Positions 16,301-61,195 of a DNA stretch of 64,000 nucleotides are shown piece by piece. The stretch comes from Cyprinodon diabolis. Lineage: Eukaryota > Chordata > Actinopteri > Cyprinodontiformes > Cyprinodontidae. The position numbers were made by a program, and so were the translations under genes. The stretch covers positions 26,708,837 through 26,772,836 of the forward strand of contig CM060069.1 of the NCBI GenBank assembly GCA_030533445.1. Direction: 5' to 3'. Position 1 is the first letter of the stretch. The number at the start of each line of letters is the position of its first letter. The notes beneath the pieces were generated by a model that saw only the letters and a list, made by a program, of their open reading frames with translations, did no database searches and was not told the origin of the DNA.

Positions 16301-19300
16301 CCTGCAGCTATTCCAAAAGGAATCCGCTTCAACACACCTGAATATAATACTCAGGTTACAGGCAGCGGATGTTCCTAGTTTTGGAGAATATATTGAATAA
16401 TGGAGGGGGAAAAAAACCTCCAATATTTCAGATTTTGACCAGAACAAATCAAATCTCGAGCCAATTGATGGATAAAAACTATTTACAATGACAAGCATTT
16501 TCATTCCCCATATATTTTCACTTTGACAGCATTTTCAAGTCTTCTCACCCCTGGGTTCAGGTATCCGACTTCCCCCGTTTTCCCATCCTTATAGGTGATC
16601 TTCACATGCTGATGGCTGCGGGAGTGGACCATCATGTCCCAGGAGTAGCCATACAAACCGTTGGTCCAGTTATTGTAACCCTGAACAAAAAAAAAAAAAG
16701 GGAAACCTTTAAAATCCCATTCCCATGTTTATACCCCTTCATCACTTGCAGTGGAGAACACATCCATGTTTTTAGTTTATCAGTGATGAATAAGATATGA
16801 TAAGGATCCAGTTTAAAGATTTCAAACTGCTGTTGATGGTGAAACAATGAGTGTTGACTCTGATTAGGCAACTAGGTCAACCGGAGGGGCTTCAAAGGCT
16901 GATAGCGGAGGGGGGAGCAATCTATCTGCACCGCAAAGAAATGGAAAAATTAAAGACATTGAAGACACACCTTGGTGATGAAGTGTGAATAAGGCATGAA
17001 AAACTGCTCTGCTATGTAAAGAATGGTAAAAAGTGCTCCCAGCTTGTGCTTCAGTCTCAGTTTGGAAGGTTTTGCAGGAGTTTGTGTCTCCCGGCGGTCG
17101 CTGGTGCTGCTGGTTTCAGGGTAAAAGCAGGAGGCACTGGGCTGAATCTCCGCCGAGGTGAGCGGCAGCATTTCGCTGAGGAAAGATGGGAAGCGGGCGA
17201 AGAACCTCCTGGGCCAGTCAGGGTAGCAGAAGAGAGGACTGGTTGCCAACATCGTGTAGGAAAACATTCCTTAAGGGGTTTAAAAAATGTACACAACTGT
17301 GAGCTAAAACAAAGGTTTTAGAGCTGTCCTGGTAATAAAAAAATCCGTGATAGAAGGTCACTGACCGATACTGAACAGCTGAGAGTTCATGCAGTGGAAG
17401 TAGGACACGAAAAAAACTGCAAATGGTCGCGTAGCGTCAAAAAACAGCAAATATCCAGCGGTTAGATCGAGGACAAGACCACCTCCGTGCACCACCAGCA
17501 GACTCACCAACTCCACAGGAAGAATCACTCTGCAAAACAAAAACACGATTAAGGATCAGCTACAGGTACAGATTATTCTAGAAATCAATTGTCCTGTCAG
17601 ATATTGGGATGATTAATAGAGTAATAAAAAAATTGGGCTATTCTGCTGATACGTCTTAACTATTAATGTTTATTTTATAAACAATAGAGATATATAAATA
17701 AGTAATTGCAAGTAATCAAATAATCTACTTATCTTTTCTTAAACAAAATCAACATACTACTGCTAAAACACAGCAGAAATAGCATGTCTTTACATTTTTA
17801 GCAAAGGATGCACTTACAGCTACAAAATTAAGTTAAACCTTTTTCTGGTTGAGTTAACATCAGGTCAGGACAAAAAAATCATCCATAAAGTGACTCCGGC
17901 ATATTGCTTTCTGGGTTTTAAGACATTCTTTCACAAAAAAGCATAATGTTATTTTAATGAAATGTGAATTTAATGTAAAATATTGTATTTTTTGCACAAT
18001 TTTGAATACATTACAGCAAACAGCGGGTTTTGTCCATCTATTCCAGTTTATTATTCTTTTTTTAGCTCATTTTAATAATCGATTTATCTGATTTTGTCAC
18101 CCCTACATAGAAATAGGGTGCCTTACAAAAGCAATTTATACCTCTTGGAATTTTTCTCTCTTTTTACATTTTATCATAATTAACTGCAAATAAAGTAATG
18201 CAGGGTTTGTAAAAATCTAAATTGTTTTTCTAATTTTTTTTTTCTAATTTCCCTATAAGTCAGGAAAACCACCTTTTAAGTCAAAGCAGTTTATTAACTT
18301 TGCAGGATTCACTCCACCTAGATAGCAGGCATTTGCTTGCATTCTGTAGTTGACTCTGCAGCATTTCCTCATACCCAGCATGCATGTAGCGACCTTTAAA
18401 AAAAAACCTTTAACAGGAAGATTTAGCTTTTGCTGCACTTATACCAGCAAAGTATTAAGAAAAGTAGTAGCTTCGAGAATTGACCGATACAGATAATGAC
18501 CCGATATATTAGCATGAATCATACCAGCTTTTTATTGCTCAAATCGTACCACTAAAGAGGGGAAGCAAAAGTCAATAACAAAGGGTATGAAAACAATTAA
18601 CACATGTTAAATTAACCAATGACTTACAGAAACCTTTAACAGAAGCAGAGTTTTTCGATCAGCATGAAAATGTCGGAGATTTTAGATGCTAGTGGATAAA
18701 ATCCACTATTACTTTTTGGCTAATAGTGGAAAAATATCCGTTATTAATATCAGATCACTACATCCCTGATACTATATATTTGTACCAACGCTAGAAATAT
18801 TTAACCTTTTTTTTTGTAAAATAACTCAAACTCAATCAGACTGGGTTGTTTCTCTCACATGCAATTAACAGGTTCTGCAGCCGATTCCTGATTCAATTTA
18901 GGTCTGTGTGTTGGGACATCAATTCAAACACGCTTTGATCCAAACCATTTACCATCTGGCTGTATGTTTAAAGTTGTTTTCCTGCTTGAAGTTGAACCTT
19001 ACATAGTTTCATGTGCTTTGCAGCTTGTACCAGATTATTTTTATACATTCCCTGTTCCTCCTGAAGAGAAGCATTTTCCAAGCATCATGCTGCCACCACC
19101 ATGTTTCACAGCTTTCTGACATAGATGGTTTTTTCATGCAGCCTTAAAAGGCTGTGTCGGTGTGACAAATACAGCCCAAACAAAAATAAAAAATAGGCTG
19201 TTACAAGACAACAGAAGTTGAACCCAAAGGGGATTAAATGAAAACATACTTGAAAGGATCAAAGAGCCAGTGGTGTGCCAGATATGACATGGAATATCCC

Positions 19301-22300
19301 TCCACCCAGTCTGCGTCCAGTTTTTTAATCCCAGCAATGAAATATACGATAAAGATCTTTGAAAATAAAAAAACAAATATCATTATGTCACATTGTTGCA
19401 ATGCATTTATGAATACTTCACATATAAAGATAAGCTGATGATAACTGAAGCAAACCTGCGTCCTCAGCATGGTGTAATTCCAGAGAGGAACATGAGCGTT
19501 TCTTATGGAATGTTTGCGTAATCCGTCCACCGACCTGAAAAAACACACATCCACAAACAGTGCTTGAAAAAAAAGTGACGTCGCCGTCAAAAGCAGACTA
19601 AAATGGCTTCAACTCACCAGTATCTGTTGGCGTCCATGAGCGTGAGCTGAAACCCAATGAGACCGTAAAGGTATGAGTGGTTGTTCCACGTCGTTTTATC
19701 CAGGAAAAAGATGTACCAGTACGTCGAGATGAACATGAGACATGAGAGGCGGTAGAAACAACCCAGCATGATGCCCAGTGCACCTTGGATTAAAAAATAA
19801 ACACACTGCTTTAGTTAATCTGAGCAGCCGTCTACTTTTAAAGAGGGACAGAATCATGATGGATTTAGGAAGTTCCTTTAAACTGTAGTGTGACCGTTTC
19901 TATAAAACCAGTTTAGAGCACAGTTGAGAATCTTCAGGAAAACCGAAAAGCATGGAAAGGCATAGGAAATTGTTGCTGCTTATCGATCTACAAAGTGACA
20001 AAAGGCCTTTTATGAAACACAAAAACTTTGGAACAATGTTCATACAAACAAAGGCATAGTAGCGGTGATGATCTAGGCTTATTTTGCTGCCAACAGGCCA
20101 CCTTGCAGTTATTTGGCTGAACATCGACTCCTGTGTCTACTTAAGTATTCTTGGGGCAAATGTCTGTCAAAGACTGTGTGCAGGCTTTATTACTGACAGG
20201 TCAATGATGTCAAAGCAGAAAATCTAAAACAGAACAGCTGAAAAAAAATGTATCTTTTGCGGTGGAGAAACAGCAAGCCTCAACCAAATGTTGCCGACCA
20301 TCAAGAAACTAAAGTAATAATTAAAAGGGGAGCAAAGGTGGGTAGTAACTAGTTTGATTTACCCAGTTACATTAACTTGAGTAAAAATTTTTATATAAAT
20401 TTACTTTTGAGAGTAGCTTTATACTTTTCATTAAGCAATATAATCAGAAACAGTATTGCTACCTATGTAAGTCATTTTATTTAAAAATAATCATGCATAT
20501 TGTAACCTCAAATGTGTCAGAAATAGCAAGACTGTTCAAAGGTATAGGGGAGGATTTTCACAAATTTATGAAAAGACCCGTCCTCTTCACTTTAAAAAAA
20601 AATGCACATGCACAACCCTGTACCCGCTACCAAGAGGGAACACCTATTAAACGTGCAAGAGCGTGAACGAGCCCATTTCTCCTCGTGGACGCTCTGTTTA
20701 AAGGTGATGTTTGCATCGCTCATACAAGCTTAATTTCCAAAAGAAGATTTGCAATTTTTTAACGATGTCAGACTCACCACGGTAAGTGAAAATGGAGACG
20801 AGCGTATAGGGCGGCTTTACGTAAACATATCAACAGAACGATTGACAGTTACGAGGACACTTGTTTTGATGATCCACCTAGAAAAAGAATATCCTCCACT
20901 ACATCTTTAATTTTCATGAAAATGATCATTTCTTTAATGTTACTTCTAGGACATGAAGTTCAAGGTAATATACCGTAAATAAGCACATATCGTCAGTGGA
21001 AGTATTTTGCCATTTTCTGTCATGCATACTTTATATACTTTTACATATCAAATGGTTTCTTATTTCATATGCCAAAAAAATCTATTTTGAGACGTGTTTC
21101 TTCTCACTGATTTTATTTTTTTTTTTTTGTTATTTAGTTTTTTGTAATTTTGTTCATTACTTTATTTTACAATTTAAAACAAAATGAATTTGCACATATA
21201 TGTTTTATGGTCTGTCTAATTACTATCATTTTAAACAGAAACTTAAAGTACTTTTTTTACTCTTACGTGAGTAATTTATTGGACGGCTACTTTTTACTTT
21301 TACCTGAGCAGAAATTTTTTGAAGTAGTGCCACTTTTACTTGAGTAAATCTGCAAGAACATGATCAACCATCCATCCATCCATCCATCCATCCATCCATC
21401 CATCCATCCATCCATCCATCCATCCTTCCTTCCATCCATCCACCCACTTCCGCTTTATCCAGACAGGTCGCAGAGGCAGCAGTCTAAACAGAGAAGCCCA
21501 GACTTCCCTATCAACACACACCTCCTCCAGGTGCTTTGGGGGGATCCCAAGGCAACACCAGGCCAGCTCAGACTGATCCCAGGCTGAGTATCTAATCTGT
21601 TTATTAATGTATATGTCTGTGTTTTCAGACTGCTTCCATTAAAATACACAGCCTCATATCAGACTTTAGATTAGCTCCTCCTAACGGATAATATACCCAC
21701 CGAGGAACATCACCAAATACACCAGGTACATCCAATCAAGCGGAAGGGGCTCTAAGAAATTGAAGAGAGGAAAGCGGCACACAGGGGCCCCATCCAGGTA
21801 TTTGTAGTCCAGGTGGCTGAGGCCTCGCTCCTGTGTGATATCTATTGCCATTAGCAAACCTGCGGGAAAAAGGAAACAAAACACAGGTTTGAATTAGGAT
21901 CTTCTTTATAACAAACTTGTACTTAAGAAACTGAGAGCTTTGATTGAATCACCAAACAAGCAGCGAAAGATGCCCAGCGATGCAGGATCAGTGGGTCGGT
22001 TCAGGAGGGCCACCAGGTTCTGCCAGGAGCTCAGGTCCTCCCTTTTGAACCCAAATAACTCCTCCATCCTGCTTTTAGTCTGAATTTTCTCTGCTTTTGG
22101 AGCTGCATCCTTCTTGGCAGATTGTTTGACACTCTCAGTGCCAACATAAGCACCTATAAGGAGAATAAAAACAAAAAAAGACCTTAAATAAACAAATCTA
22201 AACCAGATCTGAATGGATCTACTCTCAACAACAACCTGCCAGTTCATGTTTTGGATTATAGTTACACAAAACAAAGCTGTGGTTGACATCGTGGCTTTAA

Positions 22301-22411
22301 GTATTGCTTTAACTAGTAATTAGATTTAAAACAACAATAACAAACCGCTGTCTATGACTGACTGCCTGTGCTAACAGCAACCTCACCTGCTGAAGCGTCT
22401 CTCGCCTCCAT
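13338..22411 (-). CDS. ggcx: Vitamin K-dependent gamma-glutamyl carboxylase
   Basis: ER membrane enzyme that uses reduced vitamin K, CO2 and O2 to convert Glu to Gla in clotting factors and matrix Gla proteins. Minus-strand coding exons in order: 22387-22411, 21953-22153, 21701-21859, 19618-19783, 19456-19534, 19250-19356, 17366-17529, 16971-17269, 16549-16680, 16079-16230, 15837-16006, 15621-15751, 14742-14889, 14341-14545, 13338-13497. The total is 2298 bp or 765 aa (human 758), with every junction in phase. Visible hallmarks are [23 protein letters not shown], the catalytic-lysine segment [15 protein letters not shown] and HGGGLVLDL. The two cysteines that pair in the human enzyme lie in APVCRFPL and [12 protein letters not shown]. 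The third exon ends CTCG before GTGGGT; an alternative donor 4 bp on would break the frame. The C-terminal tail is divergent. The start MEARDASA follows poly-T-rich sequence and is the best-placed ATG. Confidence 0.96.
18115..19135 (-). mobile_element. Degenerate Tc1/mariner-like remnant
   Basis: In a ggcx intron. Read on the minus strand near 19060-19110 it encodes a KHGGGS-like motif of Tc1 transposases, and further on a decayed match to the SPDLNPIE motif (SQHTDLN). The sequence near 18120 resembles the common teleost GCCTTACAAAAG terminal word. It is full of stops and clearly inactive. Boundaries are approximate. Confidence 0.45.
20336..21355. repeat. Non-autonomous element with ACTTGAGTAA ends
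   Basis: The left end carries GTGGGTAGTAACTAG and TTAACTTGAGTAAAAA. The right end carries the inverted counterpart TTTACTTGAGTAAATC. The spacing of about 1 kb and the shared words with 8935-9055 and 38466-39195 suggest a palindromic-ended teleost DNA element. No coding capacity is visible. Located in a ggcx intron. Confidence 0.5.
21361..21590 (-). mobile_element. Rex3-like RTE retrotransposon 3' end
   Basis: The minus strand encodes [15 protein letters not shown] followed by a (GATG)n tail, seen on the plus strand as (CATC)n at about 21366-21447. The same peptide ending and tail occur in the longer copy at 60081-60691. A GATG-repeat tail is characteristic of Rex3. Heavily 5'-truncated and non-coding; in a ggcx intron. 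Confidence 0.75.
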
Positions 22412-39882: not shown

Positions 39883-42800
39883 CATTTATTTTCTAATTTT
39901 AAGGCTGAAATGATTGATCTGAAACAGTTTTATTAATAAAAATGAACTGTTGGAAGTTGGGCTGGAATTATAAATGCATCAATGATGATGAAATAATTTC
40001 CACAACCCAACATATGAACCTTTTGTTAGCTATAAGACAAAGAATCTAACGCTGTGGTGCTTTTCTGTCCCTGCTCCTGTTCTAGCTGTGATTGGAGCAG
40101 GCATCGGTGGAACAGCGGCAGCGTTTTACCTGAGGGAGGAGTTTGGACCTCTAGTCAAGATCGATGTGTTTGAGTCGGGGACCATTGGAGGGCGGCTGGC
40201 GACGGTAAAGATGGGCGATTATGAGTATGAGACCGGAGGTGCTGTGATCCATCCTCTGAATCTACACATGAAGCAGTTTGTTGATAAATTAGGTAACTTA
40301 AGCAAAATAACACGGGTTATGTGACGGATTATCAGAGTATTATTGCTATTCTAAATTTGATGCCTTTTTGTCGACAGGCATTCCTCAGAGAAAAGGCCTC
40401 CCTTCTAAAATGGCGATCTTTGATGGGAAGGAGCTTGTTTTTGAAGAAAGCGACTGGTTCATTGTTAACATCTTCAAGATGCTCTGGCGGTATGGATTCA
40501 GTTTCATCCGTATGCAGATGTGGGTGGAGAGTATTCTGGACAAATTCATGAGGTGAGGATGAAAACCTTTCAGAATTTACATGCAGTTCTGCATTAGCAG
40601 CTCAGGAGTGTTCTAATGATCCTATAAATCCTGACAGAATCTACCAGTACCAGCAGTACGGCTACTCTTTCTCCAGCGTGGACAAACTCTTGCATGCTAT
40701 GGGAGGTGACAGCTTCCTCACCCTGATGAATCAGACTCTGGAGGAGGCCATGATGGGAGAAGGATTTTCTCAGGTCTTCATCAATGACATTGTTGCACCC
40801 ATAACACGTGTGAACTACTGCCAAAGCGTCCGCATCAATGGCTTTGTGGGTATGTCTTCCAGTATACAGCTCCTATGTGAACAATCAAGTTTAGATTTTT
40901 GTTTCATCATAACCAAAAGCTTTAGTGGATTTTATTGGGATTTAAAATGCTAGATAAGTACAAAGAAGAGCGCTACAGAGAAGTAGTTCGAAACATGTCT
41001 TTCAGATATATTTGGAAAATCAATCAATCGGTGCCACAAAAATAAATACTTTAGTATCCAAAACATGCACACAATGTAAAATTAAGATAAATAAAAAACA
41101 ATCCAATAGATTAAGAAAATAGCCAATACATGCACCATCTTACATACTATCCTTGTTGTCAGTTTATGGTTTGTTTTGAGTGCCATAAATTTTTTTCAGC
41201 TCTAGGATAAAAAATGTGAATCGATTCGTTCTTGGTTTTAACTGATCTGTACCGTATACCTGAAGACATCCATGCAAACAGGATGTCCAGTGTGAGAAGT
41301 GTCTTTTGCAATTATGCTTTGCTTTTATAAGACAACAGTACGGTTGTTGAATAAGTTTTCTACTAAGACTAAGAGGGCAGCTTTTTTTTTTGTTTATTTA
41401 TTTTTGTCCTGTATTCACAACCATTGGTGGAGTTTTTCCCTGAGCCACAGTTCTACTGGTGAACTATACACAGACGCAGTATGCTTTAGTATGCTCCCTA
41501 TAGAGCACTTGTAGAAGGACAAAAGCAGTTTTTCCTTAATTTTATTCTTTCTAAGAACCCTCAGGAAGTAGTCTTCTTTTTTTTGTTGGCCCAAAAGAGT
41601 TCAAGTTCTACATGAGGCCCTGCTCAATGTGGACCCCCAGGAAACTGAAATCAGGTGGTGTAGTTTCTCCACACAGAGCTTGGAACCACTCCAGCTCTAT
41701 TTGTTTTGTGTAGGAGAGCAGACACAGGAGAGGCACACAGGAACCACAGAAAACAGACGAGCAGAGAACGTCACATTTGATGATAAAACCCTGTCCCTTT
41801 CTTCTTTATAAAATAGATTAGTCAGCTTGAACAGGGAGTGCCTCTGACTGTATTTCTTAAGCTTTGATTTAAATCCTCAAATTGATTTTAATCTCTCCTT
41901 GGACCAGGCCATTCTAACAAATAAAAAATGTTTCTAAGGATAAAAAGTGGTTTTTATTCTCCTCCATAGGGTTTCCATTTGGTTGGATCTTTCTTAAAAA
42001 CCTTCTTCCAGGTGCTTGCTCTAAATAAAAAAGGGATTTGTTATGGTTGCCTTCAGCAGCGGCTTTAGACACTCCAGCAATCCCAGATTTCTTAAACGCA
42101 CAAAATAAAACTCTATTGTTGACAGACTTTGTCTCCTGAACTGTAGATTTCTGCACCACCTCCAGGTTTAACCTGATGTTGTTTTAGGAGCGGTGTCGTT
42201 AGCTGGGGCGGATTCAGGCCTGTGGGCCGTGGATGGCGGCAATAAGAGGGTGTGTTCTGGGCTACTCTACCACAGCAAAGGTGACCTAATCCCTGGCAAA
42301 GTGACCTCCATCTCTGTGAAAATGCGACCATCAAAGAGAGGTATCTTCCATATTGCTGCATTTGGTACAAAATCAGGCATTTTTTCTGCTAAATTTAATC
42401 TTTTACACAAGTTCCTTCTGCCGTCTGTTTTCAGGTAACACTGTCAGCTATTATGAAGTGAACTACGTTGGAGAATCTGGCTTAGCACATTCTTTGTATG
42501 ACATCGTTGTCATCGCGACGCCGCTTCATCAGGGAAAGTCGGACATCACGTTTATGGAGTTCTCCCCTCCCATCCCAACTTACTATCCTGGTCTCTACCA
42601 CCGGATGGTGGCCACTTTGGTGCACGGCACCCTGAACGTGTCCTACCTGGGGACAGCTCAGCCGGCCTCGGAGTTCACCGTGTCAGACATCCTCACCACG
42701 GACTCGAAGGGCTGCGCCATCAACAGCCTCAGCTCTCTGGATCCTGTTCATATTCCTGATGGGTACAGTCGACCCCCCGCCAGCTATCCCAATGTCTGGA

Positions 42801-43105
42801 AGGTGTTCTCCACACAATCACTGACCCAGGAGCAGCTGCGACGAATGTTCCTATCCTACGACTCTGTGTCGGAGACCCCGTGGCTCGCTTACCCCTCGTA
42901 CCGTCCTCCGCACCGGAAGACCCCTCCGTTTATCCTGCACGACCGGCTGTACTACCTCAATGCCGTCGAGTGGGCAGCCAGTGCCATGGAGATGAGCGCC
43001 ATCTCGGCCCGGAACGTGGCCCTGCTGGCTCATCACCGCTGGCACAAACAGGTCGGAAAGGTGGACCAGGAGGACCTGCACACCCGACTGAGAGGAGAAC
43101 TCTGA
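37870..43105 (+). CDS. pcyox1: Prenylcysteine oxidase 1
   Basis: FAD-dependent lysosomal thioether oxidase. It cleaves farnesyl- and geranylgeranyl-cysteine to free cysteine, an aldehyde and H2O2. Exons: 37870-37975, 40086-40292, 40378-40552, 40638-40849, 42188-42340, 42435-43105. They sum to 1524 bp or 507 aa (human about 505), in phase throughout. An N-terminal signal peptide ([18 protein letters not shown]) is followed by the dinucleotide-binding motif [16 protein letters not shown] at about residues 36-51. [13 protein letters not shown] and [12 protein letters not shown] follow in the FAD domain. The large last exon carries the substrate region and ends HTRLRGEL. The chosen ATG gives the signal peptide directly; an in-frame upstream ATG at 37786 would add 28 residues with no signal-like character. 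A polyadenylation signal AATAAA is near 43908. Confidence 0.95.
38466..39195. mobile_element. Palindromic ACTTAAGTA element in pcyox1 intron 1
   Basis: The left end TTGTTACTTAAGTAGAAGTATAGATAC is mirrored by the inverted right end (GTATAGATACC..AAGTACAGTAACAAAT). Related to fragments at 8935 and 20336. About 730 bp, no coding capacity. Termini are approximate. Confidence 0.55.
39205..39345. repeat. Teleost interspersed repeat (CCTGTCCAGGGTGTAACCC type)
   Basis: Contains TCCTCCCACAGTCCAAAAAC, TTAATTGGCTTCTCTAAATTC and GACTGGTGACCTGTCCAGGG. The inverted, shorter relative at 61196-61325 has GGACAGGTTCCCAGTCTG and TTATCCCGTCAGGGTCGCAG. Common in fish introns. Confidence 0.6.
39851..39880. repeat. 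(AAT)n microsatellite
   Basis: About ten AAT units in pcyox1 intron 1. Confidence 0.9.
41275..41700 (-). mobile_element. Degenerate LINE reverse-transcriptase C-terminal fragment
   Basis: Minus-strand reading contains relics of a common fish LINE C-terminal block: a FLRVL-like helix, then LLSFYK-SI-SIL, then a V-W-G-like segment, plus a CCTGGGGGTCCACATTGAGC word. Interrupted by stops and frameshifts. In the pcyox1 intron between exons 4 and 5, probably of the L2/Rex1-like class. The subfamily was not resolved. Confidence 0.45.
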
Positions 43106-44240: not shown

Positions 44241-44977
44241 TTCAGCCTTTATTTTAAAGGGGACATGCAGAGGAGTTCCCATCTAAAATAAGGAGTGAAG
44301 TTGGAAGATTCCTTTTTGAAAATCATTTCCAAAATATTTTGGTTGCAATAAAAGACATCTTAAGCATTACACTTAAGGGGAGGGAAAAAGGAAATCATCT
44401 GTTTTATTGGAAATAACCCTTTTTTGGACAAAGCACATAAAGCTTTGTTTGTTTATTGAACCTAATTTGTCTAATAACAGGTTTTGTTATCCTTCCCTCA
44501 GAAAGAAGCATCTGATTGTTTTTTGGGGTTTTTTTGTCCAATCATTTATGGTTATGAGGCAGGTTAGTGTCATAAATCCAGAAACACAGCAGCTTTATCA
44601 AGTTTTAAATAGAATAGAAAGTATCATATTGCTTTTGATAAAGCAACATAATCCTGCTAAAAGCATCTCTGATTAGTGGGATAATTGTTGCATTGACTCA
44701 CATTGGGAGCCAAGTGTTCTCTCTGAAGTCACCATTTCCATATGAAAAAGCAGCAAAACATTGTTTTCAGCTCCGATACATGGAGTTCCTTTTTTTTTCT
44801 TTTCCTTTTCATCACACTTCCCAAATAAAGGCCATGTGATGCCTGCAGTCAACAATGGGCGGCTTTGACAAAGGAAATAAGGATACGTCTGTTCATTGAT
44901 GCACCACCAAGCTGTCCCCTCAGGACAATGGTACCAGAGCCGGGCTGTCGAGTCAAAACATGTGATGTGACTGAAGA

Positions 44978-44986
44978 TTTATATAG
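44978..44986 (+). promoter_or_regulatory. TATA box of the small-exon secreted gene
   Basis: TTTATATAGG lies about 70 bp upstream of the ATG at 45048. That places a transcription start near 45010 and gives a short 5' leader. A strong TATA box suits a tissue-restricted, highly expressed gene and is not seen at the housekeeping genes here. Confidence 0.6.
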
Positions 44987-45047
44987 GAGTCGGAAACAAG
45001 ACGGATCAGACACCCCGAGTCCTGCATCAACCAGACCAGCAGCCAAG

Positions 45048-47840
45048 ATGAGATTTTTGGTGTCTCTATTTGTGGTCCTTTCTGTGGCAGCATTTCACTC
45101 TGGTAAGGGACAGAAATATGAGAGTAATACAATATAGTATCAGAGTTAGCTGTGTTTTCTTAATAACTAAATAAATGATTTTTTAAAAGAATGATTAAGT
45201 AAAATCAAAGCTTGTAAACCAACAAAGGTTTGCCTGAATTTCTGTTTTTCATCATTTTACTAACGTTTTTCTATTTTCTAAAAAATAATTTTGCCTGAAT
45301 AGCATGCCTTTTGTTATCAATATCGCCACAATATCTTTTCTTTATTTCCTATCTTTTTACAGTCTATTTTTTATGCTTTTTTTCTTATTCAGAAACTTGG
45401 TTATTTCTGATTTTTAATCCTCCTTTATGAATTTCTTATGACTCGTAGCCCTCTCAGCATCTCTGGAATCTGCAGAGAAAGAGGAGGAAGTTACTAATCA
45501 TGGTGAGTAGATGCTTATTTATAAAAACAGTAATGAAGGACAATGTTACAGACTGACAGAAAGTGACATAACTCTAATTTTTCTCTGCAGATGGGCTGAC
45601 ATGGGCAGATGATCGGCTGCAGGAAATAGGTAAAATACAAGTGTCAACTAACATTAGGAATACACATGCTTTCTGAAAATAAGTATGTGGTTTTGAGAAA
45701 TGAAATTTAAAATTTGAAAGTTTTAATCTGATTTCAGTTTTCTAATATTTTTTTTCCTCCATTAATCTTACTTATATGGGTTTGTTCTTTTAGATGTGAT
45801 GGAGTTTGAAGCTGCTCAAAAAGAAAAAGCAGCTCAAAAGAATGGTAGGTTTAAATCTGACAACAAAATGAAATGACTCAATTTACAGAATTCAATGATT
45901 TTTAACTTTTGCTGTCTAGTCACAGAGGATCAGAATGAAGACAGCAGCTCTCTTGGTAAGGTTAAAACCCAAAAAAATCATGACAACTTTATCAAATAAG
46001 TACAGCTGTTCCCTTGGTAATGCAGTCTTTAACTTCACAGAGGCTGGTGAAGATGGATCTGGTCAGTTTCTAGTACAGCATACAGTGATTCTTATTTCCC
46101 AAACATATATCTTATAACTAAGTTTATTTTTTAAATGTAGAGCAGCATGATGATGATGGTGAAAGCAAAGGTTTGTTGATAGAATGTCACTCTCAATGGT
46201 TTCTTTTATGTCCTTTGCACACATAAAAATGCTCTTTTAAATATTATTGCATTAATCCTACATATACTGACTTTATTTTGTTTTTTATACCATTAATAAC
46301 TTGGTCTTAACCATAATCAACTATTAATTGGCCTCTTGAATGCCAGATTAGTTTTTTTTTTGTTTTTTTTACACAAAACATTTGGTTTTCATTTATTTTA
46401 ATGGATTTGTAAGTTTAACAATAATTTTTCATTTTCTTTCTTTTATGCAGAGTAATTTGTAAAGAAGCTGCTCCTCTAACCACAGATTTAAAAGTAATAC
46501 ATGTCAATAGATGCTTTTCAGTTGTTTTATGGGGATGTCATTATCAATGTTTTCTTCTATACGCGTGGAAGTTTTTCTTCACCTTGAAGAAAACGTTATA
46601 AAATTTAAGAGATTTCATAAATACATGGAAATAAAAAATGGAAATACATTTTTCAACGTTTTTCATCAAAAGACTGGGGCGGGTATCGGGTATACAAAGA
46701 AAATGACCGAAAAATTTAATTAAAACTGAAAAGGTCTTTTTTTTTTTTTTTTTCGTCTGTCACCTTTGAAAATAAAACATTTAAGAAATGTAAGAAGGAT
46801 AACTGCATTTATCAGTCTTACTGTACCACTGTTGTCCAGCAGAGGGAGCAGCATACTCTGATGGCGCAGCTCAAGGTGAGGCATGTTTTTAATTATGCCT
46901 CTAGGTGGCAGCAAAGGACGACTGAAAAAGCAACAGCCGTGTCAAGTCTGAATAAAGTCTCCATTTATCTCCTTTTTTAAATCCAGAGTCAGATTCTAAG
47001 TCCTCCGTGGAGACTGATGGTGAGTGTATTAAAAAATATATATTTCTTAAGAGTTTAAAGATGTATCCTCTAATGGTTATCTTAATGATTTCCTTACAGA
47101 GAGGCGGTGATTTTTCTCATCTTAGAACTATTTAATTGTATTATTAGAATTATCAGAGGTGAAAAAACTTAAAAGATTAAAAAATGTACATCATTTTTTT
47201 CAGAGCACCTAGACACGGGAACAGAGAGCTGTTTGGGTATGTGAAAACACTTAAAAATCTCATGATAACAAGCTATAAATACTGATTTTATTTTCTTTCA
47301 CCCCAGATTTCAGTGAGCAATCAACCCAGAAACAAGGTGAACTTTTCAGCTTTCTACATCAACCTTTAATATCTAATTTTGCATAAGTACCTCTAGCTGC
47401 TAGGAATCCAAACTGTTAAATAAGCTCAGTTCACAACGTGTTTAACATTCTTGAAGGCAGACTCAGAATTACCTGCAGAGGCGAGATGTGGTAAAATGTT
47501 TGCAGCAAACCAGTAAAGTCTAAATTGTGAGTTATGCAATAAACCGGACAGAGAAAAAAAAAAGCTGGTCACAGCCAGTCTGGGCTTGACTTTTTGAAAT
47601 AGTGCGACAAATATTTGGTGGCCGCCTGTGGAATTTAGTCTGCAGTAAAAATAAAATGTTTGACTACTTTATGCTGCTCACGCAGAAAAAACAAAAACAG
47701 GTTTGTTTTAAAATTATGTAGAGAATAGCTACTTTGACATTATAAAGATATTTATGACACGGTTCTTTGTAAGTAAATCTGGGACAAGAATCCAGGACAC
47801 TCAGAGGCATCTGTCCCCAGGTACTGAGCTTGATTTATAG
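45048..47840 (+). CDS. Novel secreted acidic peptide gene of phase-1 mini-exons
   Basis: Not recognised. Exon 1 (45048-45102) encodes a signal peptide, MRFLVSLFVVLSVAAFHS. Then come 45449-45502, 45591-45629, 45794-45844, 45920-45955, 46041-46061 and 46141-46170, each with good AG/GT ends. All begin and end in phase 1, so any can be skipped without a frame change. A last exon at 46451 adds Glu and a stop, giving a 96-aa precursor. The mature part is Glu/Asp/Ser-rich (EKEEEVTN, QNEDSSSLE, EQHDDDGESKE) with one NVT glycosylation sequon and no cysteine. Further phase-1 candidates follow: 46987-47019, 47204-47236, 47307-47336, 47461-47490. Alternative ends lie at 47100-47110 (ERR stop) and 47821-47840 (GTELDL stop). 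SCPP proteins share acidity and small exons but use phase-0 introns, so I did not assign that family. The first seven coding exons are well supported, the later ones less so. Confidence 0.6.
46836..46849 (+). promoter_or_regulatory. Candidate CTCF site
   Basis: CCAGCAGAGGGAGC fits the CTCF core with one mismatch. It lies 62 bp before a second match in the same orientation. The same bases could also be the acceptor of a 33-bp phase-1 exon (46843-46875), so the reading is ambiguous. Confidence 0.4.
46898..46912 (+). promoter_or_regulatory. Candidate CTCF site
   Basis: CCTCTAGGTGGCAGC is a strong CTCF core match (AGGTGGCAG) in the same orientation as the 46836 motif. Motif only. Confidence 0.5.
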
Positions 47841-49493
47841 ATTTATTTGCCTCTGGTTATTTTAGGAACAAGGATGCACTGCAGCTCTAAATGAAAAAAA
47901 TGTTGAAACCAAAATTATTTGATTTAGGTTTTCCGATTGGCCAATAACGGGATAAAATAAAAAAACTGGAGGGAAAAGTGTCTTTGCAGCAAATCCAGAC
48001 TGGTAGGGAATAAACCTCACTGCATTGGTGGGAAATTTGCTGCAGTCATAACTCATCTTGCCCCTCAGGGGTTGTGAGACCTGAAAACCCAGAAGTTGAT
48101 TCATTAACCTGAGGCCATGGAAAAAAAAAACAGCAAAACACTGCATTGTGTTTATAAAGCTGGCGTAAAGGAATTCTGTCTATCCCTGCCTCAGATGCGT
48201 GAATGAGAGATCCCTGCAACACGTGGGTCCCAGCGTTTAGTCACCACCACGCCAGATGCTCCCAGCTTACCATCAATAAAGGGAAAATGATCCTGCATGT
48301 CTGGATAAGCATCCCTCCTCTTGTTTTCCACCATAGATCAAAACAAGCAGGTTTTTCCAACTGCTACATTCAGATGCTTTAGTTTACTAAAGTTCCTGAA
48401 ATAAAGTTTCAACAAGTATTATCTTTTACAATTTTTATTTGTTTTTCTCATCTACAAATGTGGCGCAGAGGATGGTGTGCATTTAATAAAAAATAATCTT
48501 TGGTACCTAAAAAAACAAAACCAAAACAAAGTAAGGCAACTAAAGCATCTACAGGTCTGAATGCATTTAGTCAATTGACCACATGCAACAGTATAAGTTG
48601 CCTGGATTCTGAAAACAGGCCAACACCTAAATCAGTTCCAGTTTTAAAGGTATTTTCTGCCTTATTTAAAACAAGTGTAAACTTAAGGTAACTGAAATGT
48701 CTGAGAAGGTGCAAACATCACAAACACATACTGAAAGTAGCATTTACAAAGCGAGTTAGGAAATACAAGGCTAAAGCAGGCTTGAAGCATTAACCATTCA
48801 AGGATGATTGAGTCAAGTTTAAACAGGAGACTTAAGGTCTTTTTCCAGAGTACAATATTTCTGCTGGTGGACATTCTGTTACATCTTAAGCTGAGGTGGA
48901 CAATTTCAGGCTGCTTTTGCACTTGGCAGAGTTTTTTCCTTCTTTTGTTTAGAGCAAACAATGAATCTATTACAGCATTTTCTGTATTAATCTGCAAGTG
49001 TTCATCCATACACAATTACATTTTGCACTGTAAACTGCTGCACTCTTGAGATCTGGAGAATAAACCATTTTAACCAACGGATTTTTTTGTTTCTTTAGAA
49101 CAAATGCAGTGCCAGGTTTGGGCATTTAAAGCCAGATGCATAATCTAAAAAAAATTAAATATTCTCAGTAGAAAAGAGGTACAGCAACATATGGTGTTCT
49201 TCACCCAAGGTACTGCTTTTGCATCTACATTACTATCAGCATGTGTTATGTCTGAGATTACATATGATATGATCTTTACTGCATTTCAAATACTGTCAAA
49301 AAAGTATTTACATGAAGGAAATATAAAAATAAAATTAAAAAAAGATCAGTTGATGCTGATAAGAATTTACAGAAGATATGAAATGGGCTTCCCCCAATTG
49401 GAGGTCATGGGATCCAAAAGGAACAAACGGCAAAAGCAAAGTTTAATATGAACCACAGGCACATGAGTCCTTTTCAAACACTTCCTTTCAGTG
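47841..49493. other. Convergent 3' region before slc20a1
   Basis: Contains possible plus-strand polyadenylation signals (AATAAA near 48279 and 48399) for the small-exon gene and a minus-strand signal near 48435 for slc20a1. The slc20a1 3' UTR probably fills 48.4-49.5 kb. Frames at 47862-48146 and 48683-49015 show no domain. Confidence 0.45.
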
Positions 49494-52400
49494 TTAATAT
49501 GGAGGATCAGCAGGAAGGATGCCATAGATGAAGATGGCCATGACAGCAGCGCTGATAAGGCCAGAGATGGGCACGGTCACAAACCATGCCATAAATATGT
49601 TTCTGAACAGACGCCAGTCCACCGCCTTCTTTGAACGCAGCCATCCTACTGCAACCACAGACCCCACCTGCAAACAAAGCAGTTGTCGTAATTTGAGTCA
49701 ATCTAAAGACCTTACAGATATATCCATAACCCATGAGCCTTTCCACATTACAACTTCTAACAAGTAGTTTTTGCAATACATTTACAGAGTACCTCTTTAT
49801 AAAGATGGTTTTATATATAAGATTTGTCTGCAAAGTCAAACAAGCAGAGTGTAAAAGACCTTAAAGTAACATTGCATTATAAAAGACAACACTTTTGTGG
49901 TGTTCAATAAAATAACTTCACTATTTAAGGTGAATGGTGTACTTAAGGGACCCATTTTATAGTGGGTATTTCTTCAAGAGCAATATCCATGTTTGCTGCC
50001 ATTATCTTAATCCGACCAGGCCCTTAACCTACATGTTTGCTGTGTTTTCTATATGAATTTTAAACAATTTTTTTCCCCCTCCACTATTTATTCCACTTCA
50101 TATCACTCTGTCCATTTGTAAACAACAAAAACTGTAACAAGCCTTACTTTATTTTGGCCAATTACACAATATCCATTTAGATTTCATGCCCATGATGTGA
50201 TCAAGTCTGAGGAGTATGAATACTTCTGCAGTGCACAGCAGTGTCTGGGGTCCATAATAGGACCCAGAGCCAGACTGTTTACTCAGACTCTGTCCTAATA
50301 AACAGCCTTCCCATTTCTCAGTCAAATTCACAGACCACAATGTTTGACTGGCCTACCTTGCAATGGGTGGTGGAGACAGGCAGACCAATGTTAGAAGCAA
50401 CCACGACAGTCAGGGCGGAGGCCAGTTCAATGCTGAAACCACTGCAGGGGGAAAAGGAAAAAACATCTTACACATGGATGCCTGACTAACCTGCTACATT
50501 ACTAATGTAGCAGTAATGTCTGGAGTGGATGCGGTGAGATTTTTGTCGTACCTTGAAGGGGTAATGGGGGTGAGATCTTTTCCCATAGTCTGGATCACCC
50601 TGCGACCCCACACCCACAACCCGATACAGATGCCCACACCGCCGTAAAGCAGAAGCCAAATGGGTGTAGCTGCGTTAGAGGTCACGCTGCTAGTTTGGTA
50701 AACCAAATACAAAGCTACCAAAGGGCCAATGGCATTGCTGCAGAGTAAAGAGTGAGGTTATTCACACAGTGGGCAAAGAGCTAGGACAAGTTACAATGTC
50801 ACTAGCTACTTGGCAGACAAACAGGTTTTATCTTATCTCTCTGATGACAAGTGACAACATGACCAGCGATATGCGGAGTCCTTACCTCACATCATTTCCA
50901 CCATGGGCGAATGATCCAAAGCAAGCAGTGAGAATTTGGAGGAACTGAAACAGAGTAGAAACTTCAGGCTTGTCTTCTTCATGCCGGTCTTCAACAGAGC
51001 TTCGGCTGCTGTCTGCATCCTCGTTTCCTATTTCTAGTGTCACGTCACTTTCAACAAGCTCTTCGGGGGTCATGTTCTCCGCTACAGCATTGCAGTAGCT
51101 GGTGTAGCTGTCCATACGCACGCGCTTCTTTTCCTGTCCGCTTGACACTGGCCCCTTTTCTCCATCTTCACCTCCACGGATATCTGTCTCTTTGTGCCTG
51201 AAATCACTGTGCAAGCCGATGATGGCCATAGTGTATGAGGTGTAGCTGTTATTCCTCCGCATGGGTCGATCACCCGGTTCTCCCATGCAGTCGCCAACCT
51301 TGGCCAGGTGGAGTTTGTGCAGCAGGTCTTTATAGAGGCCAGAATCTTTGTGGACCGTATGGTACTGGCAGTAACCGTTACTGGGACTCTGTGCTGGCCT
51401 GTTGAACTGACTTTGGTTATTCAAGTGAACCTGACTGGGAGCATTTGTAGAGCCATTGCTTTGTAGGTTGTTGAGCTGGACTTGGTCATTTGTTGGATTC
51501 GGTTGTGCTGCAGGCAGAAATGCATAGCTTATTATACAGTTGGAAGTACTTTATACATTACGAATCTGCTAAATTATGTCTATAGAATCCATTATTCAGT
51601 AGCTGTTCAAGAAACAATAAAACTGTTACAGAAATCCAGTCTGAAATTTAACCACTAATTTTGTCTTTTTTAACTTACCATTTGTATGGCAGTCCTCCGT
51701 GTCGTCCGAATCGCCAATGTTAAAAGCAACCTTGCGTTCCTTATTCAGTTCTGCCTCTTCAGGCTCCCCAATATCAAACGCCACCCTCCGTTCCTCTGGG
51801 TCAGGCTGGGATTCAGAGGAGTTCTGACTGACAACCGGCGCAGCAGGAGAAGACGTCTCCTTGGTAGTCTGTTTCAATATAGGACAGTGAGCCTCTTTGA
51901 GCTCCTTCTTTTCCATCAGGGGGCTCTCAGAAGGACTGGAAGACTTGATATCGCCTGGCAGGAAAAAAAACAAGGCAAGATCGTATATGTAAACCATCCA
52001 GCAGAGATAACCAAAGAGTAAATATTTGTGTTCTTCATAATCTGAAATTTTGTAAGATTTGTGTAATTAGAGAATCAAAAGACCATTGTCCTGTAAAAGT
52101 AATGCTACCCATGTTTAAAACTGATCCTCTGTTTTAACAGGATCAGATAGATGGATTAGCAGTACCATGTGTACATTACTGCAAAGAGGTTACATAATCT
52201 GAGAACAGCAAACAACCTGTTCTCAGATTGCCAAGGAAAACAAATTTCATACATTTCCTGTAAATTACAAAAATACCAGGAAGTAAAGCTTGATATCACC
52301 TCCCATCGTTTTTCTTTAAACCAGCAAAGGAGGCTATGTGAGCACCTCAAGTCAACCCAGGCTTATTTTAGTCCTGGAGCTAAATACCTATTAAAGGATC

Positions 52401-57331: not shown

Positions 57332-57762
57332 ACTGTATAGGACAGTGTAATCATCGTCATCATCTGCATAACATTTCATACAGACATTAGCCCCAGTTCA
57401 TCAAGTTACTTACCAACCATGGCACTGACAGATCCAGCCATCAGCGTGTGCTCAGATCCATTGTACATGCGCACGTCGATGATGCCCTTACGGATGGTTT
57501 CGCTCACTTTTGCCCCAAGCAGCACAGAGCCCAGAGTCTCAAACACTGTAGCCAGAATGCAGGCCTGTCGCAAAGTCACGACCCCAGAGCCAACAGCTGT
57601 GCCAAATGAGTTTGCAACATCATTGGCACCCACAGAAAAGGCCAAGACAAATGCAATGATGAAGCCAACAATAAGCAGCCACAAGTACTCTGTCAGAGGA
57701 GTGTTGGTCATTGCTGCTACAGTAGTAGTCAGTATAACTGCAGCTGTAGTTGGAGAAACCAT
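49494..57762 (-). CDS. slc20a1: Sodium-dependent phosphate transporter PiT-1
   Basis: Plasma-membrane Na+/phosphate symporter of the SLC20/PiT family. Minus-strand coding exons: 57414-57762, 57128-57268, 56884-56969, 56601-56697, 52883-53002, 51679-51954, 50886-51507, 50552-50737, 50357-50441, 49494-49667. The sum is 2136 bp or 711 aa (human 679), all in phase. The two inverted PiT signatures are intact: [20 protein letters not shown] in the N-terminal half and [18 protein letters not shown] across the junction at 50886/50737. The phosphate-site region [15 protein letters not shown] is in the second exon and its C-terminal partner [14 protein letters not shown] spans exons 9 and 10. The hydrophilic loop in exons 6-7 contains [29 protein letters not shown] and [11 protein letters not shown] blocks typical of PiT-1 rather than PiT-2. 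The tail is [10 protein letters not shown] hAT copy is in the intron before exon 5. In mammals this protein is also a gammaretrovirus receptor. Confidence 0.95.
54109..55190 (-). mobile_element. hAT-type DNA transposon, copy 2
   Basis: 1082-bp inverted sister of 26732-27866. Terminal repeats are TAGGGCTGGG and CCCAGCCCTA, with a perfect 8-bp target duplication TTTCTATG (54101-54108 and 55191-55198). The minus-strand interior repeats the decayed BED-finger peptide ([18 protein letters not shown]). The insertion is in an slc20a1 intron, 27 kb from the first copy. Non-autonomous. Confidence 0.92.
57300..57330. repeat. Poly(A) tract
   Basis: About 30 A residues in an slc20a1 intron. Possibly the tail of a lost retro-insertion or simple slippage. 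Confidence 0.8.
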
Positions 57763-59400
57763 GATTGTAGACTATATAGGAATACCTTCACAATTTTAAG
57801 GGAAAGCAATACTTTTAATGGGGCTACTTTTAAAAACAGTAGCCAGTAAACTCAAGAGGTATTGGGTAAATAAATAAATAGATTTCTACAGGACCACCTG
57901 CATTAACAGGATTACTGAGGTCCAGCAGTGCAAACTAGTGAAAATCCAGGGCTGACCAGAAATCAATTAAAGTAAACTACAGGTAAAATAAGAGATTTAT
58001 TGCTATCCAGTAATTAAACGAGATCTTTTGCTGCTGTGTTGGTGCTTGGTTGTCAAGCAGAGGGTGAAACCAGCCATTGTGCAAATGTTACAGCTGGTAG
58101 GCAGGGGGACATTCTGAAAAAAAAAAAACACACAAAAAAAACATTAGTATGAAAAAAGTGACTAGAGAATAACAAAAAAGAAAACCACATATAGAATTTC
58201 TTATACGTATAACAGGACTGCATTAAAATAAGATAAACACTAGGGGCTGCAATCACCGGAAGATCGTCAGCTGCGTGCTTTCCAGAAAAGAGGAAGCCAT
58301 ATTTCGGAAATGGCGCACGAAGAGTAGAGGCTATTAGCACTTAAATAACGATCCGTATCCAAGAGAATGTTTCAGCATCGATGTTTACCTACCCTTAATC
58401 GTGTAAATCATTCAAAGTGGTGCAGAGACAGAAAAAAAAACCGTTATGTCAAATAGAGACACTGCTTTGCTACGTCTGCACGTGTCATTCATTCACACTT
58501 CAAGAAAAACCATTCCCCTTGTGATCGCGAGGCTCGAACAGGCAGTAGGCTACAACATAGCTGTCGCAAACGGCTTAAATTCATTTTCTGACGGCCATAC
58601 TTGCCGCCGTGTGTAATAAACCAAATCTAGGTTATACAAGACGAGTTTGTTTTTTTTCTCCGCCAAAGGGGGGATGCAACCGGATGAGAGTCAGAATGAG
58701 TGTCATATGTTGTTCCACTTTAACTTAATGTTCTACCAAAAGCGTCCAAATCGCTGTATTTTTTATGTATATATCCTTAATGTCAATATTTAGAGATCTA
58801 TTCTAAAACGGTCTTAGTATGTCAATTTATATAAAGCCATACGCCCTCTATCATATATGTGGCGATAGTAGTAATTAAATCAAAAGATTACATAAAATAT
58901 TTATTTAGCTTGCATTTCGTTATTCTTATTAATTCTGCTAACAGCTCATATACCGTCTGTTGTGTCATTGTACGATGTACCATCGGCCAGATGCTAACAC
59001 CGATCGTTCAAACAAGTCTTAAGTAAATTGTCATGCCAATAACCAAAGAAAATATGTTGAAGTGTTAAGAAAAGATTAAAGTAGTACACTCACCAATCGT
59101 TACAGCAGTCAGTCGTGTAGAAAATACTTCCTTTTAGCCGGTAAGCTAATTAGCGCGCGCGCGCGCACAAAACGGCTGGCTTCGATAGCGCGCGCGGGAT
59201 AATGAATAATTAAAGCGGTTATAAAATATGTCTTCAAAAGCTGTATCTAGAATAAATTATAAATATTCGAATGAAAAATTGTACTCAAGACTATGCCTAA
59301 AGAGGAAAAATACTATCGATGAAAACGCGTTCCAAGTTCTAGAAACGTCTCCGTTTGAATGGAAGCTTCTCTACCTCATGTATGAAACTTGCTCACGCCG
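57763..59400 (-). other. slc20a1: slc20a1 5' UTR exons and first intron
   Basis: Upstream of the start codon an acceptor-like AAG sits just before 57785, so coding exon 1 carries about 23 bp of leader. A consensus donor (minus strand GATTG then GTGAGT) ends a likely non-coding exon at 59094. A second acceptor-like TTTTTTTTCAG at about 58113 could define an alternative 5' exon. The rest is intron without a recognised element. Confidence 0.5.
59155..59167. repeat. (GC)n tract next to the slc20a1 first exon
   Basis: An alternating GCGCGCGCGCGCG run, with a second GCGCGCGCG run at about 59189. Alternating purine-pyrimidine GC of this kind can adopt Z-DNA. It lies within 100 bp of the predicted first-exon donor. 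Confidence 0.7.
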
Positions 59401-60080: not shown

Positions 60081-60691
60081 CCATCCATCCATCCATCTTC
60101 CTCCGCTTATCCGGGGTCGGGTCGCGGGGGTAGCAGCCTAAGAAGGGAGGCCCAGACTTCCCTCTCCCCAGCCACTTCTTCCAAGGAGAAGGCCAGCCGA
60201 GAAACATAGTCTCTCCAGCGTGTCCTGGGTCTTCCCCGGGGCCTCCTCCCGGTGGGACGTGCCCGGAACACCTCACCAGGGAGGCGTCCAGGAGGCATCC
60301 TAACCAGATGCCCGAGCAACCTCAACTGGCTCCTCTCGATGTGGAGGAGCAGCGGCTCTACTCCGAGTCCCTCCCGGATGACTGAGCTTCTCACCCTATC
60401 TCTAAGGGAGAGCCCAACCACCCTACGGAGGAAACCCATTTCGGCCGCTTGTATCCGCAATCTCGTTCTTTCGGTCATGACCCAGAGTTCATGACCATAG
60501 ATGAGGGTAGGAACGTAGATCGACCGGTAAATCGAGAGCTTCGCTTTTTGACTCAGCTCGCTCTTCACCACGACGGACCGGTACAGCGCCCGCTTCACGG
60601 CAGACGCTGCGCCAATCCGCCTGTCGATCTCCTGCTCCCTTCTTCTCTCATTCGTGAACAAGATCCCGAGATACTTAAACTCCTCCTTTTT
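60081..60691 (-). mobile_element. Rex3-like RTE retrotransposon, 5'-truncated
   Basis: The 611-bp insertion is bounded by an 8-bp target duplication GTTGGTGT (60073-60080 and 60692-60699). The minus strand is open for at least 184 codons in the C-terminal reverse-transcriptase region: YVPTLIYGHELWVMTERTR, then LSLRDRVRSSVIREGLGVEP, then GRRPRGRPRTRWRDYVSRL, ending REVWASLLRLLPPRPDPG before a short GATG tail. The intact open frame and clean duplication imply a fairly recent insertion. It lacks the endonuclease and most of the RT, so it is dead on arrival. Confidence 0.88.
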
Positions 60692-61195
60692 GTTGGTGTA
60701 TCACATGAAATACAAGTAAAATGATACGAAACATTGTGTAAAAGCCATTGCACTGTAGCTTTACACATATTGACATAGAAAATGATCAAAGCATGGTACC
60801 AATATAAATTTAAACTTAAAAAACAGCCACCTTCAGCAGCAACATCTTCCACACTTCATGTTTGAAGATGAATTTAACCCAGATGTTCTTTTAAAAAGAT
60901 GGTACATTTAACAGAGTGTTCCAAAAGGTGTCAGATGTTAATTATTTAGCAGAGGGTTTTCTCTGGCTTGTTCATTTTTTTTCATCTGCAGTGGTGTTTG
61001 TTGATTGTTTTCCATCACAGATAGGTCCAGGAAGGAAGAAAGGGTCAGATTTGATTGGATTTACTTACAAGAAACCATAGACATTTGTCAATTATTGTTT
61101 AGGATTTACTTGAAATCAGTAAAAGATTGCAGGAATTATGACTGTAGGAAGGAAATTGTAAACATAAACTATACAACTGGTGATAAAAAAAAAAG

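Follow-up and report, generated by a model that had tools for sequence, protein, structure and literature searches.

A conserved teleost gene of phase-1 mini-exons for a small, very acidic, probably secreted protein in Cyprinodon diabolis

The mini-exon gene and its surroundings

A 64 000-nucleotide stretch of Cyprinodon diabolis DNA (contig CM060069.1 of assembly GCA_030533445.1, positions 26,708,837 to 26,772,836 of the forward strand; the window) contains on its + strand a gene at 45048–47840 with 12 coding exons, which read from the DNA as 144 codons followed by a stop. The corresponding teleost locus, of the si:dkey-200l5.4 type, is a genuine, widely conserved gene whose small and very acidic product is probably secreted. 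The ten internal exons are 21–54 nucleotides (nt) long, all multiples of three and in phase 1 at both ends, and all 11 coding introns are in phase 1. A preliminary description of the window had proposed a TATA box (TATATA at 44980–44985), a signal-peptide exon from ATG 45048 (45048–45102) and six mini-exons of 21–54 base pairs (bp) with phase 1 at both ends and GT–AG splice sites (starting at 45449, 45591, 45794, 45920, 46041 and 46141), all of which are recovered here. Its seven coding exons thus stand, but the gene is longer, with 144 rather than 96 residues. Four downstream candidates that it had listed (46843, 46987, 47204 and 47307) are true exons, because relatives encode matching peptides in the same order.

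Exon 1 (45048–45102, 55 nt) encodes the signal peptide MRFLVSLFVVLSVAAFHS(A), ends in phase 1 and is conserved in related fish, so that a check named in the preliminary description speaks for the gene. Exon 2 (45449–45502, 54 nt) encodes (A)LSASLESAEKEEEVTNH(D). Exon 3 (45591–45629, 39 nt) is 12 nt (four residues) longer than in 29 aligned relatives, and a block matching it is skipped in a Menidia isoform. Exon 4 (45794–45844, 51 nt) carries N66, the asparagine of the N-glycosylation sequon, and corresponds to a helix in the model of a relative, while exon 5 (45920–45955, 36 nt) has a second acceptor 6 nt downstream (start 45926). Isoforms without exon 6 (46041–46061, 21 nt) are annotated in Sander and Xyrichtys and isoforms without exon 7 (46141–46170, 30 nt) in Sander, Tautogolabrus and Chaetodon. 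Exon 8 (46843–46875, 33 nt) is preceded by a CAGCAG tandem acceptor, with an alternative start at 46840 that adds one Ala codon. Exon 9 (46987–47019, 33 nt; ESDSKSSVETD) is the counterpart of the ESESESSEEAD cluster of relatives, exon 10 [47204–47236, 33 nt; (E)HLDTGTESCL(D)] matches EHKETVTESSL of Fundulus, and exon 11 (47307–47336, 30 nt) encodes (D)FSEQSTQKQ(G). The terminal coding exon (47821–47840; GTELDL and a stop) is placed by exon order at the position where many relatives end in (D)VLE, although the final residues are not similar.

GTELDL is the one of three previously suggested stop exons that is retained; the other two, ending in E and in ERR, find no support among relatives. The former, at 46451, has a strong acceptor (score 6.5), yet none of 125 related proteins ends there (the shortest has 18 residues beyond the junction); it may still be a species-specific form. 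The latter, at 47100, is read instead as a relic of the RQRR micro-exon of relatives; the string AGAGGCG followed directly by gt (47100–47106, between exons 9 and 10) is the probable remnant of an exon encoding GRQRR. Nor was support found for phase-1 cassettes at 47461 and 47686.

The mini-exon structure is far from chance. With simple scores based on general splice-site frequencies, 12 candidate exons of 18–60 nt exceeded the threshold in 45103–47850, and all 12 were open in phase 1 and a multiple of three in length. Seven of these are true internal exons, four are true exons with an alternative start, and one is the stretch 47126–47158, which passes the threshold but was not taken as an exon; the other three of the ten true internal exons (45591, 45920 and 46141) scored below it. 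Among 46 window segments of equal length on both strands the mean was 0.57 candidates, the top two (six each) overlapped the gene and the next had three, while 100 mononucleotide shuffles gave a mean of 0.14 and a maximum of two.

This architecture is safe for the reading frame in every combination. All 11 upstream exons end in G, so that across a phase-1 intron the junction codon consists of G and the two bases that open the following exon and is never a stop; any exon can therefore join any later one. Accordingly, all 1024 skip combinations of the ten internal exons stay open, with products of 24 to 144 residues, which bears out the proposed interchangeability of the exons, and exon-skipped isoforms are annotated in other species. 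Junction codons are GAG or GAT (Glu or Asp) in eight of the 11 native joins and GCC, GTC or GGT in the others; the splice consensus itself thus supplies many acidic residues at the joins.

Upstream of the gene, the promoter and 5' leader (44855–45047, + strand) contain, by position, the TATATA at 44980–44985 and an upstream in-frame ATG at 44928. This stretch matches annotated N-terminal extensions of relatives in tblastn (Cebidichthys, expectation value E 3e-8; Pelmatolapia, 6e-10; Pungitius, 4e-8; Ameca, 4e-21), with scores partly owed to the signal exon. Its conservation may reflect a promoter, TATA box included, that was misread as coding, or a second start at ATG 44928. Downstream, 47773–47802 (+ strand) is a conserved possible alternative 3' coding stretch, VNLGQESRTL, which is the C-terminus of a Leuresthes protein (ten of ten residues identical in tblastn) and shares seven of nine residues with a Dicentrarchus isoform. 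A candidate polyadenylation signal AATAAA lies at 48275–48280 (+ strand) and another at 48400. The stretch 47451–47501 (PAEARCG) matches an annotated C-terminal tail of Acanthopagrus latus (tblastn, E 3e-4) and is possibly a conserved 3' element or an alternative end.

The gene sits between frames named pcyox1 and slc20a1 in the preliminary description. On the pcyox1 side, Pfam matches to prenylcysteine lyase and NAD-binding domains fall in frames within 39992–43105 (+ strand), and on the slc20a1 side PHO4 phosphate-transporter matches fall in frames 50882–51550 and 57406–57771 (- strand). Farther away, frames within 14337–22319 (- strand), which resemble a vitamin K-dependent gamma-carboxylase gene, contain an HTTM domain at 19234–19608, two of the other frames there having no Pfam match. 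A 197-residue open frame at 60107–60700 (- strand), also without a Pfam match, resembles the C-terminus of a long interspersed nuclear element (LINE) reverse transcriptase.

Relatives and the protein product

Relatives were collected in three protein searches. With the 96-residue precursor of the preliminary description as query (E up to 10; 96 candidates), 72 proteins matched, from E 1.7e-26 (Goodea) to 3.4e-9 (Pampus), and the best five came from killifishes and livebearers. A profile of 30 sequences gave 181 matches, 120 of them among the matches listed, and a Lampris (opah) query gave 13, including itself and two rainbow-trout proteins. The resulting comparison set of 125 listed proteins is nearly all teleost by name and reaches rainbow trout; two odd labels aside, no zebrafish or non-teleost homologue was among the matches listed (for the profile, the best 120 of 181). 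The odd labels are Salmonella (P0010) and Mustela, the latter as the second name of P0097. P0010 is a near-complete killifish-like version inside a Salmonella enterica record. Its 541-bp contig must derive from a spliced message, because it is too short for introns and the frame in the window spreads over 2.8 kb; it is probably fish complementary DNA contaminating a bacterial assembly. The 997-bp contig encoding P0034 very probably derives from a spliced message as well. In the C. diabolis genome itself (1.22 Gb), a nucleotide query of 501 bases from the beginning of the gene returned only the locus itself among the matches listed.

The name si:dkey-200l5.4 is borne by four of the 72 matched proteins (P0033, P0041, P0044 and P0048). 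Orthologues in this family (LOC127370019 of Dicentrarchus, LOC116034920 of Sander and others) have the same signal exon, the same order of exon peptides and a similar N-terminal half, and exon order and boundaries agree, as judged indirectly from isoform blocks of relatives that end on junctions of the window gene. By these sequence comparisons the window gene is a member of the si:dkey-200l5.4 orthologue family, from which this species differs in its longer exon 3, the C-terminus GTELDL and an apparently broken RQRR exon. The family is apparently unstudied. The clone name was not found in the main texts of the literature searched, searches by gene design and by automatic names brought up nothing visibly on this gene, those on pcyox1/slc20a1 synteny had nothing on it among the matches listed, and one on elastin and symmetric exons returned only unrelated work. 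The term 'undescribed' in the preliminary description is thus apt for the main texts searched but not for the databases, where records exist under si:dkey-200l5.4 and a range of automatic names.

The predicted mature part of the protein (residues 23–144, the cut point being inferred) contains 38 Asp and Glu against eight Lys and Arg residues, with a net charge of about -30 at pH 7. The strong acidity and the single sequon (N66-V-T) had been recognized beforehand; the reported lack of cysteine applies to the 96-residue version, while the full protein has one (C127). A sequon of the exon 4/5 type, N-[VIAG]-T-[ED], is found in 114 of the 125 proteins; the proteins examined from trout, Centroberyx and Polymixia lack it at that position, and sequons occur elsewhere in trout (NDT) and Centroberyx (NVS). 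An AlphaFold2 model of the Crenichthys relative P0003 (32 sequences) has a mean predicted local distance difference test (pLDDT) score of 60 and a predicted template-modelling (pTM) score of 0.25, with helices at residues 4–26 (signal) and 35–72 (approximately exons 3–5) and no structure beyond, and predicts a mostly disordered product. With E values of up to 10 allowed, the 30-sequence profile matched no solved structure. Weak Pfam matches are scattered over 21 families among 30 members, led by DUF2244 in the signal-peptide region (21 members, best E 0.00024), which we take as chance (12.7 bits for the window protein against a cut-off of 27).

The mature part also carries five S-x-E motifs; FAM20C is described as a kinase targeting S-X-E/pS motifs (in the available part of PMC8348777). 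Such motifs in an acidic, Ser-rich product, together with a signal exon followed by small frame-neutral exons, are what an unrecognized acidic secretory calcium-binding phosphoprotein (SCPP) acting in bone, tooth or scale mineral would show, as SCPPs are secreted and some are acidic and Ser-rich; frame-safe exon skipping is also an SCPP habit (available part of PMC5118209). The same text gives phase 0 for the introns of most SCPP genes, whereas 11 of 11 coding introns here are in phase 1, a departure from SCPP design already claimed in the preliminary description, and membership was rejected on this rule. The available part of PMC13367325, a 2026 teleost survey, names dmp1, scpp1, dsppl1, ibsp, mepe and spp1 as the six acidic SCPP genes of bichir and gar and describes SCPP genes as clustered, one cluster including sparcl1; the neighbours here are pcyox1 and slc20a1. 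We consider an SCPP identity very improbable.

Osteocalcin and matrix Gla protein genes have a phase-1 mini-exon after the signal exon. A rough six-frame motif scan of 43–60 kb for γ-carboxyglutamic acid (Gla)-like stretches gave eight loose matches; those near the gene (44946, 45783 and, on the other strand, 46039) are not Gla-like, and this identity was rejected because the scan gave no such stretch in the gene. An ExxxExC string, absent from the window protein, occurs in four of the 125 relatives (P0003, P0010, P0089 and P0101), which we attribute to chance given how acidic the protein is. The neighbours also differ, Mgp and Bgp being flanked by erp27, ddx47 and pde6h (in the available part of PMC8006282) and this gene by pcyox1 and slc20a1.

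Conservation is uneven along the protein. Among 28 relatives, pairwise identity is 0.68–0.78 for exons 1–6 (0.70–0.78 for exons 1–5), lowest for exon 7 (0.36) and intermediate for exons 8–12 (0.55–0.72; 0.57–0.63 for exons 10–12), so that the earlier epithet 'fast-evolving' suits exon 7 but not exons 1–6. This pattern bears on the idea of a secreted protein that varies in the face of microbes or parasites, with splicing making a pool of slightly different proteins like the products of schistosome micro-exon genes (MEGs). As described in the available part of PMC4350168, MEGs encode a signal peptide, consist mostly of very small symmetrical coding exons and produce, by alternative splicing, variants differing by a few residues, and the fish gene, with its ten internal exons of 21–54 nt, has the same architecture. 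The well conserved N-terminal half is unlike a fast immune-facing protein, and we regard such a role as quite improbable. The likeness is one of design only: the same text states that MEGs appear restricted to platyhelminths, whereas the present gene belongs to vertebrates, is conserved and has an acidic product.

Splice variants annotated in other fishes

For the comparison of isoforms, 23 species groups, each with two or more listed isoforms, were selected by eye among the 125 proteins; the selection omits at least four species with two listed proteins each (Monopterus albus, Channa argus, Lates japonicus and Scomber scombrus), and some groups (Oncorhynchus, Odontesthes and Gasterosteus) may mix annotation versions or two gene copies. 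Internal differences of at least three residues were treated as blocks, and a block end within one residue of an exon junction of the window gene as a match. Both ends match in 23 of 47 blocks, compared with a mean of 3.2 and a maximum of 11 in 2000 random placements, an excess that is an indication rather than a clean probability because the blocks overlap and the alignment contained the isoforms.

Sander isoforms lack exon 6, 7, 8 or both 7 and 8, and isoforms without exon 9, which holds the ESESESSEEAD block, are annotated in Acanthochromis, two species of Acanthopagrus and Pseudochaenichthys. The V-T of the sequon is present or absent between isoforms of two groups (Acanthopagrus latus and Scophthalmus); in the window, the second acceptor of exon 5, 6 nt in, passes the threshold missed by the first, and its use would drop the V-T. 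Clean presence or absence of GRQRR separates isoforms in six of the 23 groups. In the annotated isoforms of relatives, three features thus come and go with splicing: an N-glycosylation sequon, a convertase-type site (RQRR) on a five-residue micro-exon, and a serine/acid cluster. At the level of annotation in other fish, this indicates that one gene can give many protein variants. A related observation concerns the saury Cololabis saira, whose protein P0075 appears to hold the exon 2–8 block twice in tandem; this appears to be a natural duplication of internal modules that the phase rule keeps in frame.

It could also be that the exons and the protein are real while the isoforms are useless splicing noise and only the full-length protein matters. 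One-residue differences at CAGCAG acceptors are often noise, and pairs that differ by a single A or V where exon 8 begins, the site of CAGCAG in the window, occur in 12 of the 23 groups (trout has a one-residue T difference there, outside this count); many annotated isoforms are, moreover, computed. Against this, skipping affects the same exons repeatedly across unrelated families of fish, and this species too has the tandem acceptor. We give this explanation an appreciable probability, well short of even.

The convertase-type site allows a further explanation, that of a hormone- or neuropeptide-like precursor in which a cut after RQRR or RQKR would free a short active C-terminal peptide. An R-x-[KR]-R site after residue 80 is found in 59 of the 125 proteins, from trout (RQKR) to percomorphs (RQRR), a distribution by which the site is judged to be old, and LQKR, perhaps also cut, occurs in trout, Polymixia and Centroberyx. 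The site nevertheless lies on the cassette that is toggled in the six groups mentioned above, exons 10–12 downstream of it are less conserved than exons 1–5, and in this species it looks broken, since AGAGGCG and gt alone remain of the 15-nt GRQRR exon of relatives and are not phase-symmetric. A peptide-precursor role is accordingly unlikely.

A proposed secreted polyanion shaped by splicing

The reading that we favour, at about an even chance, is that of a polyanion, extracellular or stored in secretory granules, that would bind cations or basic partners and in which splicing sets length, charge and modification sites. The precursor is assembled from the signal exon, the ten phase-1 mini-exons and the short last exon; cassette skipping, tandem acceptors and, in relatives, inclusion of the five-residue micro-exon would then yield many isoforms. 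These would differ in charge, in the serine/acid cluster, in the N-glycosylation sequon and in the predicted proprotein-convertase site, and as secreted disordered polyanions they would bind cations or basic partners. The gene with its exon phases, its conservation and the annotated isoforms are observed directly; for the product itself we infer secretion, phosphorylation, glycosylation, cleavage and the binding of cations or basic partners. Starmaker proteins, which are acidic, offer a comparison. Starmaker and Starmaker-like are intrinsically disordered fish otolith proteins that control calcium carbonate crystals (available part of PMC4260845); the predicted disorder of the present product is similar, and any shared role would be an analogy only.

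Several points weigh against a polyanion shaped by splicing. The remaining 24 of the 47 isoform blocks fail the two-ended test, 19 matching only at the 3' end, two only at the 5' end and three at neither; several of the 3'-only blocks are the extra GRQRR exon, which has no counterpart in the window, or the exon 6/7 border, which the alignment displaces by two residues. The blocks depend on one another, and the alignment used to transfer the junctions included the isoforms; these come from database annotation, are for the most part computed and may in part be splicing noise. Of the 125 proteins, 66 lack the R-x-[KR]-R site, many of them as isoforms that lack its exon or have other ends, and this species has probably lost it, as its RQRR exon looks decayed and the remnant would shift the frame. 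Finally, among the Pfam matches listed none exceeded a curated cut-off, so that no known family lends the product a function.

More tentatively, the gene could be a splicing-controlled switchboard for post-translational modification, in which alternative junctions each add or remove a specific site and one locus gives rise to combinatorial secreted polyanions. The sites concerned would be the sequon (at the tandem acceptor of exon 5), the convertase site (on the 15-nt micro-exon) and the phosphorylatable ESESESSEE cluster (exon 9). We hold this to be possible, though rather doubtful.

Database records of the family carry misleading automatic names, among them cyclin-dependent kinase 11A, gar2, neurofilament, BOP1, RAD52 and TFIID subunit 7. 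Because these names are wrong and scattered, expression studies that report them may be misreading this protein. The gene offers an unusually clean example from nature of how intron phase and an exon-end G guarantee safe exon shuffling and tend to give acidic joins, and its design makes it testable whether a disordered, secreted protein has its cleavage, glycosylation and charge switched by splicing. If the switchboard were real, it would be a vertebrate counterpart, in design, of the schistosome micro-exon genes, with the splice consensus supplying the acidic residues at the junctions.

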